Assembly: GCA_020631075.1 (NCBI GenBank)
Contig: JAHDHX010000002.1
Location: forward strand, 1 to 64,000
From: Candidatus Altimarinota bacterium
Lineage (GTDB): Bacteria; Patescibacteriota; Gracilibacteria; UBA4473
DNA: 64,000 bases
Direction of reading: 5' to 3'
The translations under genes were made by a program, and so were the position numbers. The notes beneath the pieces are model-generated. The model had not been told where the DNA came from. It ran no database searches and saw only the letters and a program-made list of their open reading frames with translations. How positions within the stretch are numbered: the first letter of the stretch is position 1; every line of letters begins with the position of its first letter. Positions 7,025-21,578 of the stretch are shown one piece after another.

Positions 7025-8173
7025 TTACTCGTAGGCGGCCAAGGCGGTGAGGATGTCAGCGGTGAGGTCGTCGGGGTGCTCGATGCCGACACTGAACCGA
7101 ACGAGGCCGTCGGTGAGGCCCTGCTGGGCGCGAATGTCGGCGGGGATGGACGCGTGGGTCATGGACGCGGGGTGGTTGACGAGGGACTCGACGCCGCCGA
7201 GGCTCTCGGCCAGGCGGAAGTAGGTGAAGGAACTGATGAGGGATTTCATCTGGTCGAGGGTGAGGTCGAACTCGATGCTGACCATGCCGCCGAAGCCGCC
7301 TGTCATCTGTCTTTGGGCGAGCTGGTGGTGGGGGTGACTCGGTAAACCCGGGTAGTGCACGGCCCGCACGAGGGGGTGGGATTGCAGGGTTTGGGCGATG
7401 TGGAGGGCGTTTGCGTTGTGCTGGGCGATGCGGAGGGGGAGAGTTTTGAGTGAGCGTTGGGTGAGCCAGACGTCAAACGGAGATGGGTTGAGCCCGAGAG
7501 ACAGGCGAGCGAAGAAGAACTGGTCGTTGAGGATTTGGTCGTTGGTGATGAGGGCGCCGCCGATGATGTCGGAGTGGCCGCCGATGTATTTGGTCAATGA
7601 ATGCCAGACGACGTCTGCCCCGAGGGTGAGGGGGTGCTGGTTTATGGGGCTGGCGAACGTATTGTCAACCACGGTGGTGACGCCGTGCTGCCGGGCGAGC
7701 TGGGTGATGGACTGGATGTCGGAAAGTCGCAGAAGGGGGTTGGTGGGGGTTTCGATGATGATGAGGTCGATGCCTCGCTGGAGGTGCTGCTCGACGGCTT
7801 TTCGGTCGTGCCAGTCAACTTGCAGGAGCTGGATGCCGAACTGGCCGAAGCTGCGGGTGAACATTCGGTAGGTGCCGCCGTAGAGGTCGTCGGAGGCGAG
7901 GACGCGAGCGCCTGGCTTCAGGGTGCTGAAAAGGGCGGTGCCTGCCCCTAGACCACTAGAAAACACGGTGGCGTGCTGACCGTGCTCGAGTGCGGCGAGG
8001 GTGGACTCAAGGTTGGTGAAGTTGGGGTTGCCTGCGCGAGTGTAGTCGTAGCCTTTGTCGATGCCTGGGTGGTCTTGGGCGTAGGTGGAGGTCATGTAAA
8101 TGGGGGGGACGACGGCGCCGAAGGTGGCTTCGGGGGTCTGGCCGATGTGGATGGCTTGGGTGTGGGAGTGCAT
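7025..8173 (-). CDS. Cystathionine gamma-synthase/lyase-type PLP enzyme
   Basis: 382 residues, the usual size for the Cys/Met-metabolism PLP family (fold type I). Seen directly: the substrate and PLP segments YDYTRAGNPNFTNLE and VFSSGLGAGTALF, the cofactor-contacting VDNTFASP, the PLP lysine in HSLTKYIGGHSD, and the C-terminal RFSVGIEHPDDL. The family covers cystathionine gamma-synthase, gamma-lyase, beta-lyase and related enzymes, which sequence reading alone cannot separate. Synthase or gamma-lyase is most likely. The start at 8173 (MHSHTQ) follows a CU-rich stretch; longer starts would run into the leader hairpin region. Expression is probably controlled by the attenuator-like leader described at 8199-8362. 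Confidence 0.85.
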   Translation of the reverse strand: MHSHTQAIHIGQTPEATFGAVVPPIYMTSTYAQDHPGIDKGYDYTRAGNPNFTNLESTLAALEHGQHATVFSSGLGAGTALFSTLKPGARVLASDDLYGGTYRMFTRSFGQFGIQLLQVDWHDRKAVEQHLQRGIDLIIIETPTNPLLRLSDIQSITQLARQHGVTTVVDNTFASPINQHPLTLGADVVWHSLTKYIGGHSDIIGGALITNDQILNDQFFFARLSLGLNPSPFDVWLTQRSLKTLPLRIAQHNANALHIAQTLQSHPLVRAVHYPGLPSHPHHQLAQRQMTGGFGGMVSIEFDLTLDQMKSLISSFTYFRLAESLGGVESLVNHPASMTHASIPADIRAQQGLTDGLVRFSVGIEHPDDLTADILTALAAYE

Positions 8174-8198: not shown

Positions 8199-8235
8199 AA
8201 AAAAAATGGCCTGAGGCTCGGGGGGGAGTCAGGCC
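8199..8235 (-). terminator. Intrinsic terminator inside the leader of the cystathionine gene
   Basis: On the minus strand GGCCTGA (8235-8229) pairs with TCAGGCC (8214-8208), followed by A and eight T (8206-8199). It sits about 25 bases before the start codon of the gene it precedes, so it can only act as an attenuator. Confidence 0.7.
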
Positions 8236-8362
8236 AGAGGGGAAGCAACGAGGTGGTGACGCGGGGTCGACACGGTGCGGGGGTGGGCTCTGGCTCAAAT
8301 GAGACAGCAGCAACAGCACACGGTGGCGGACAAAGAAATACGCATCAAGAGGTAGTATAGCA
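8233..8362 (-). promoter_or_regulatory. Leader RNA with promoter and antiterminator arm
   Basis: An extended -10 box (TGC-TATACT, top-strand 8354-8362) would start RNA near 8347, giving a leader of about 170 bases before the ATG at 8173. Within the leader, GCCAGAG (8294-8288) is perfectly complementary to CTCTGGC (8239-8233). The second element overlaps the 5' arm of the terminator hairpin, so the two pairings exclude each other. This is the layout of a riboswitch or attenuator. No known riboswitch class was recognised. The -35 region is weak. Confidence 0.5.
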
Positions 8363-8385: not shown

Positions 8386-8862
8386 TTAGAGGGTTGCTTT
8401 GTATTCCTCTATTGTTGTATTGAATTGATCGAAAGCTGGCTTTTGAGTGTCTTTAAATGATTCAAGATGTGCATAATCCTCTTGGTGTACTAGGTTTTCA
8501 AAAATAGAGATAACTCCAGCAGAATACAACTCTTTATAAATATCTATGAGTGATTTTTTTTGGCTTATTTTCAACTGTATAAGGGCTTTTAACTTTGTGA
8601 GTGCTTGTAATGAGAGTGTGAAGTCACTGCCATTTTTTAAGACATCTTCTTGGTGAGTGATGTTGGTTTTAGTGAAATCTGGCACATAAACATTTTCGGC
8701 AATCTTCCTGACGTAGAATGGCCAAAATTCGACGCTATAACTCTGACAATGATTTTCAGCATTGTAGTAATTTATTCCGTATCCATTTTCATGGACATCT
8801 GAGTGGGTGATGTTGTCATCTTTCAGATGATCACTGTGATATTTTCTATTTAGGTTCATCAA
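8386..8862 (-). CDS. Hypothetical protein in an AT-rich island
   Basis: 158 residues, no recognised family. It is rich in Lys, Asn, Tyr and His, without a signal peptide or membrane segment, so it is probably cytoplasmic. The middle (about residues 75-110) looks helical and charged. The gene and its flanks (8386-8910) are far more AT-rich than the neighbours, with codons ending in A/T, which suggests transfer from elsewhere. The start may be either of two adjacent ATGs (8862 or 8859). It is placed as a gene because the composition is protein-like and the frame is intact over its length, not because of homology. Confidence 0.55.
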   Translation of the reverse strand: MMNLNRKYHSDHLKDDNITHSDVHENGYGINYYNAENHCQSYSVEFWPFYVRKIAENVYVPDFTKTNITHQEDVLKNGSDFTLSLQALTKLKALIQLKISQKKSLIDIYKELYSAGVISIFENLVHQEDYAHLESFKDTQKPAFDQFNTTIEEYKATL

Positions 8863-21118: not shown

Positions 21119-21578
21119 TGGTGGAGGTGGCGGGAATCGAACCCGCGTCCGCCCGGGGAAACCTGAGAGCTCTACGTTCGTAGTTTCGTTTGGGGGGTGA
21201 CGTGGTGATAGAAACGAAACGAAAAGCCACCATGTCAGCGGACTGAGAGTACAGTACAGCAAGGTCAGTCGCACACCATTGCTATACCGAATGTCTTCAG
21301 AAATATGATGTCGGTGAGCGGGAGGAAGGCATTAGACTCCGCACTCTGACACCACTTAGGAGCGAAGCTCAACTAAGATTTAGGCAGCCATAGCGTAAGC
21401 AGGCTGTCGCAGTGAAGCGAGGAAGTCCGAAGCGGCTTTCGCAACACCTTTAGGGTTCAACTGTTTTGCAGTTATGTTTAGTTGGTCGTGGGGAAGGGTT
21501 GACCGGTGCCCCAAAAGAGACCGCACCGAGAACGCACTCGTCAGACTTCGCAGCCGAACGTCAAAGCCAAACACCCCC
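21119..21578 (-). ncRNA. ssrA: tmRNA (ssrA)
   Basis: 460 bases. The 5' end GGGGGTG pairs with the 3' CACCTCC of an Ala-like acceptor stem, including the G3-U70 wobble read by alanyl-tRNA synthetase. The T arm is GCGGG-TTCGATT-CCCGC and CCA is encoded. An internal reading frame from GCA at 21469 to TAA at 21380 gives the tag AKQLNPKGVAKA...AYAMAA, 29 residues including the coded Ala, much longer than the usual 8-20. It still ends in the AMAA-type degradation signal. tmRNA with SmpB frees stalled ribosomes and marks the products for proteolysis. It is divergent from prfA, which also serves termination. Confidence 0.93.

Follow-up and report, generated by a model that had tools for sequence, protein, structure and literature searches.

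A probable cysteine-sensing attenuator before a cystathionine gamma-lyase family gene in a Patescibacteria genome, and similar leaders elsewhere in the phylum

Introduction

In the window (the whole 64,000-nt stretch of DNA that was analysed, from contig JAHDHX010000002.1 of a Candidatus Altimarinota bacterium), a gene for an enzyme of sulfur amino acid metabolism is preceded by a short leader with an intrinsic terminator. Does this leader control the gene, and if so, what does it sense? To our knowledge, little is known about nutrient sensing in CPR bacteria, which have tiny genomes and are probably host-dependent, and a full-text search of the openly accessible literature found no report of leader-peptide attenuation in Patescibacteria/CPR. 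We propose that the leader is very probably a ribosome-mediated transcription attenuator that senses the supply of cysteine, as charged tRNA-Cys. This type of attenuator is already known; the lineage seems undescribed for it, and it is apparently widespread there.

Results and Discussion

Anatomy of the leader

The features that matter are as follows.

8386-8862, minus strand: upstream ORF of 158 amino acids, AT-rich in a GC-rich neighbourhood, no Pfam match
8362-8354, minus strand: extended -10 element TGCTATACT (TGC-TATACT), by direct reading, with no good -35
8345-8295, minus strand: leader ORF of 16 codons, translated as MRISLSATVCCCCCLI and then a stop
8304-8318, minus strand: five consecutive Cys codons (TGC TGT TGC TGC TGT), the proposed stalling site, from the sequence
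8294-8288, minus strand: candidate antiterminator 5' arm GCCAGAG, directly 3' of the leader's TGA stop, from the sequence
8239-8233, minus strand: candidate antiterminator 3' arm CTCTGGC, from the sequence and constrained folds
8208-8235, minus strand: intrinsic terminator hairpin GGCCTGACTC.../GAGCCTCAGGCC, arms 8235-8226 and 8219-8208, fold about -15 kcal/mol
8206-8199, minus strand: U-tract of the terminator, eight T, from the sequence
7025-8173, minus strand: PLP enzyme of the cystathionine gamma-lyase/gamma-synthase family, 382 amino acids (Pfam PF01053, E 6e-134)

The promoter-like sequence, leader, terminator, and complementary segments described in the earlier note are thus all present, on the minus strand. 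The terminator is as strong and as close to the gene as had been claimed: the gene's ATG (8173-8171, minus strand) lies about 25 nt past the end of the T run. GCCAGAG is exactly complementary to CTCTGGC across a spacer of 48 nt, and the last three bases of CTCTGGC are shared with the first arm of the terminator. What the earlier note overlooked is the leader ORF with its five Cys codons, which lies between the promoter element and the gene, where an attenuator would have it.

The leader ATG is 8 nt past the -10 hexamer, so the mRNA is expected to start at or just before it, and the transcript should be leaderless or nearly so. TGA should be read as a stop in this ORF because the genome encodes RF2. 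As GCCAGAG immediately follows the stop codon, a ribosome at the stop would be predicted to cover it. (Elsewhere in the class, four cysK homologues, L112, L114, L130, and L131, contain 2 to 20 in-frame TGA codons, which is consistent with some members of the class translating TGA as an amino acid.)

The regulated gene is a PLP enzyme of cysteine and methionine metabolism, which fits the amino acid that we propose is sensed. Its top NCBIfam matches were cystathionine gamma-synthase and bifunctional gamma-lyase/homocysteine desulfhydrase, all below the cut-off, and its best PDB matches were cystathionine gamma-lyases. CBS was not detectable in the window genome (1.46 Mb in 50 contigs, 95.9% complete), and the leader directly precedes the gamma-lyase gene itself. 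Given the lack of a detectable CBS, any exact role of the enzyme in cysteine supply is putative. (This genome also lacks ribosomal protein uL30, which is present in 13 of 14 control genomes; along with its small size and the in-frame TGA codons of some class members, this suggests a member of the CPR/Patescibacteria close to Gracilibacteria. A tmRNA at 21119-21578 of the window, minus strand, is 460 nt long as compared to 374 positions in the Rfam model, which suggests an insertion.)

Proposed mechanism

Transcription would start about 7-8 nt past TATACT, at or beside the leader ATG, and a ribosome trailing the RNA polymerase would begin to translate the 16-codon ORF. A shortage of charged tRNA-Cys would stall this ribosome on the five Cys codons and leave GCCAGAG unoccupied, so that it could pair with CTCTGGC. 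The terminator stem would then lose its base, beside the U-tract, and the polymerase would read on into the gene for the gamma-lyase. With ample cysteine, the ribosome would go on to the stop codon and cover GCCAGAG, the terminator would form, and transcription would end before the gene. We have clearly less confidence in the exact GCCAGAG/CTCTGGC pairing as the switch than in the general identity of the leader, and lean only slightly towards it.

Could the leader arise by chance?

The leader (193 nt) has a folding energy of -43.1 kcal/mol (z = -3.3, none of 200 shuffles as good), and a hairpin of about -15 kcal/mol followed by eight T stands between the leader ORF and the gene, as expected of an attenuator. 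(The hairpin was not among the hits of a consensus terminator scan.) The 7-base complement is modest when taken alone, as it was equalled in 103 of 5,000 mononucleotide shuffles. The Cys-run ORF (8345-8295) is a more improbable part of the leader than any element in the earlier note: in 5,000 dinucleotide shuffles of the upstream region (180 nt), no ATG ORF containing five successive Cys codons was obtained. The window genome does not have more runs of TGY codons than of the reversed pattern, and with no such enrichment the Cys run is no proof on its own. As the complement is only moderately improbable as well, the window by itself leaves doubt, and relatives are needed.

One alternative is that the hairpin merely terminates transcription of the 158-amino-acid gene upstream, or is a constitutive structure in the 5' UTR, and that the Cys codons lie in a frame that is open only by chance. 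The upstream gene is on the same strand and stops at 8386, 24 nt 5' of the -10 element, and both the lack of enrichment of TGY runs and the lack of an equilibrium switch in this leader (see below) fit this explanation. Nevertheless, we think it improbable, because a Cys-run ORF and a terminator recur in the same position before related operons and before many cysK genes, far more often than in shuffled sequences.

Leaders of related operons

Among 353 genomes of the class, only three (G033, G263, and G318) have an enzyme at 58-62% identity. Each of the three has it in second position in an operon, together with a CBS/cysteine-synthase-like gene, and upstream of every one of these operons lie a Cys-run ORF and a terminator of the intrinsic type. 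The leader peptides are MIPTASCICCCTIEHCSRAT, MKNKFKIFACCRALKG, and MIYSQLISNCCCLSKEAPLES, respectively, each ended by a stop codon. A phylum-wide search for the enzyme returned only the window genome. A search for close relatives elsewhere found only enzymes from other phyla, at 59% identity or less, which served as negative controls; a locus from a Chlorobi-labelled MAG (L011), whose enzyme is 59% identical, has no Cys leader.

To cover more of the phylum, we used 38 cysK/CBS loci, which are homologues from the class and from a sample of the phylum. A Cys-run leader ORF lies upstream in 16 of these, including three outside of the class (G358, G446, and G609). Counted as ATG ORFs, those with two successive Cys codons occur at 16 of the 38 loci (shuffles: mean 1.15, maximum 6) and those with three at 12 (shuffles: mean 0.04, maximum 1). 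Cys was the amino acid with the most triple runs at these loci; the next was Leu, with 3. Within 180 nt upstream of 80 enzyme loci from other phyla, a Cys pair was found at 2 and a Cys triplet at 0. About half of the cysK/CBS loci have no Cys leader.

Nearly every leader that we examined contains an intrinsic terminator candidate, and in nearly all of them the leader stop is 14-58 nt from the terminator. In several relatives, a -10-like hexamer stands 7-9 nt 5' of the leader ATG, and by eye the spacing resembles that in the window in G025, G239, G280, G311, and the first leader of G609; the 5' ends are longer in G318 and G263. The leaders of relatives have the Cys ORF and the terminator in common and no obvious common sequence or visible common fold. 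A class-wide scan for TATAAT followed by ATG and TGYTGYTGY did not help: most matches were out of frame, the in-frame share was by our estimate no higher than chance, and the three that we followed up were noise.

Two loci appear to have more than one such unit. At L140 (G609), two successive units of Cys leader plus terminator, with peptides MNKYLNLKQNCCCTNSL and MKYILKNLKIQFCCCKDPPCCS, lie about 263 to 63 nt before a cysK-like gene and are apparently a tandem attenuator. The ATG of a second Cys-run ORF in the window genome (MHPHTLSCCCCLTSPAGAGATAQCPVG; L149, G000:C8:197232, minus strand) is preceded at 9 nt by TACACT, which is -10-like, and the ORF is followed by a terminator-like hairpin. 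Next come a further ORF, which encodes CCCPC, and another terminator. Downstream of all of these are a 149-amino-acid ORF with no Pfam match and, after it, a ribonucleotide reductase gene. The L149 terminators had probabilities of about 0.7-1.0 throughout the fold test described below, and the locus may be a set of tandem cysteine attenuators.

Does ribosome stalling switch the terminator?

For each leader, we computed folds in which the RNA was masked to 10 nt past the A-site codon, and compared a ribosome on a Cys codon to a ribosome on the stop codon. For the three related operons, the probability of the terminator was low with the ribosome stalled at Cys and high with it at the stop: 0.11 versus 0.97 in G033 (1 of 400 spacer shuffles as good), 0.23 versus 0.99 in G263 (4 of 400), and 0.00 versus 0.90 in G318 (0 of 400). 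With the stall codon predetermined, 9 of 18 leaders (the window's and those of relatives) switched by at least 0.5, as compared to 0.8 on average and at most 4 per set of shuffles, and the mean switch was 0.45 versus 0.05 in shuffles. The outcome for a single leader varies with the terminator chosen and with the length of the mask (G033 needs 10 nt, and G446 switches only at 8). The figures are given as computed, including those for which the automatic picker chose wrong or doubtful hairpins (G263 and G042 in one run each, and G347 in two).

The window's own leader did not switch in this test. Its GC-rich terminator prevails at equilibrium at every ribosome position (probability 0.93-0.98). 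When the ribosome sits on a Cys codon, the forced antiterminator is at -20.5 kcal/mol versus -24.1 kcal/mol, a cost of about 3.6 kcal/mol, and a shortened hairpin persists about five bases from the U-tract. Thus, the mutually exclusive pairing in the earlier note is half right: both arms exist, and the 5' arm abuts the stop codon, yet the antiterminator loses to the terminator at equilibrium, and we reject an equilibrium GCCAGAG/CTCTGGC switch in this genome. The switch here must therefore be kinetic, partial, or via another pairing. It would require that the antiterminator, being the first to form, outlast the short passage of the polymerase over the U-tract, or that another pairing act. That the relatives compute cleanly helps us to infer a switch in the window.

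A second alternative is that the leader ORF does sense cysteine, by polarity and Rho-dependent control or by translational coupling, and the hairpin is secondary. This would account for the missing equilibrium switch, and the polycysteine leaders of mycobacteria have no obvious terminator (PMC1262725). Against it, the ORF and the gene are separated, in the window and in relatives, by a good intrinsic terminator that has a U-tract, and the relatives have a computed antiterminator. We doubt this explanation about as strongly as the first alternative.

Finally, a metabolite riboswitch or T-box, in which the RNA itself binds SAM, methionine, cysteine, or a tRNA and the terminator is the expression platform, would suit a structured leader (z of -3.3) before a sulfur amino acid gene, but it is very improbable, because Rfam gave no match at the gathering threshold or to E 10 except for a chance match to STnc450 (E 9.9), the relatives' leaders share no visible fold, the 14-58 nt between the leader stop and the terminator is short for an aptamer, and the Cys leader ORF accounts for the anatomy. 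So, the earlier note was right to place an attenuator before a sulfur amino acid gene and to recognise no known class in it, and its riboswitch or T-box option found no support; of the signals that it listed, cysteine, as charged tRNA-Cys, is the best supported.

Implications

Taken together, we think it likely that cysteine leader-peptide attenuators, often leaderless or nearly so, are a recurrent control of cysteine synthesis genes across several classes of this phylum of reduced genomes, a lineage for which we found no report of amino acid attenuation. The genes that they precede vary (cysK, a CBS-like gene with CGL, or CGL alone), and one arrangement is apparently in tandem. If they do recur across families and classes, then CPR bacteria would couple translation to transcription and monitor charged tRNA-Cys, and cysteine synthesis would be tuned by a few dozen bases without a protein regulator. 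The element can be tested and transplanted, and a Cys-run mini-ORF followed by a terminator is a search rule for finding more of them.

Comparison with known systems

The trp, his, and leu leaders of proteobacteria are the classical ribosome-mediated attenuators. Like them, the window's leader has a short ORF in which codons for the product amino acid are repeated, a candidate antiterminator arm at the end of the ORF, and, ahead of the gene, an intrinsic terminator. Unlike them, its amino acid is cysteine, its ORF is apparently leaderless or nearly so, it is from another phylum, and it matches no Rfam leader model.

Cys leader peptides have been described in Actinobacteria and Rhodobacterales. 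In Rhodobacterales, the uORFC-8-2 motif before cysS has a pair of Cys codons in a uORF and then an intrinsic terminator, and stalling is predicted when charged tRNA-Cys is lacking (PMC8632094). The window's leader is similar in that the Cys codons of a uORF are followed by a terminator and charged tRNA-Cys would be sensed. The two differ in that uORFC-8-2 precedes the gene for cysteinyl-tRNA synthetase, whereas the leaders of the present phylum precede cysteine synthesis genes, and in that uORFC-8-2 is a conserved structured motif (PMC8632094), whereas the present leaders have no obvious common sequence.

In Actinobacteria, Cys leader peptides were predicted before the cys operons of Mycobacterium and before cbs of B. 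longum (PMC1262725; for these polycysteine leader ORFs see also PMC4633059), and leaderless polycysteine ORFs in mycobacteria are the subject of Canestrari 2020, going by its title as cited in PMC13236596. Polarity and Rho-dependent control or translational coupling was proposed for the mycobacterial ORFs. These leaders resemble the present ones in being short Cys-run ORFs before sulfur genes, including cbs, and, in mycobacteria, in being leaderless (PMC1262725, PMC4633059). The 2005 survey found no terminator hairpins in them (PMC1262725); in contrast, nearly every leader examined here has a candidate intrinsic terminator.
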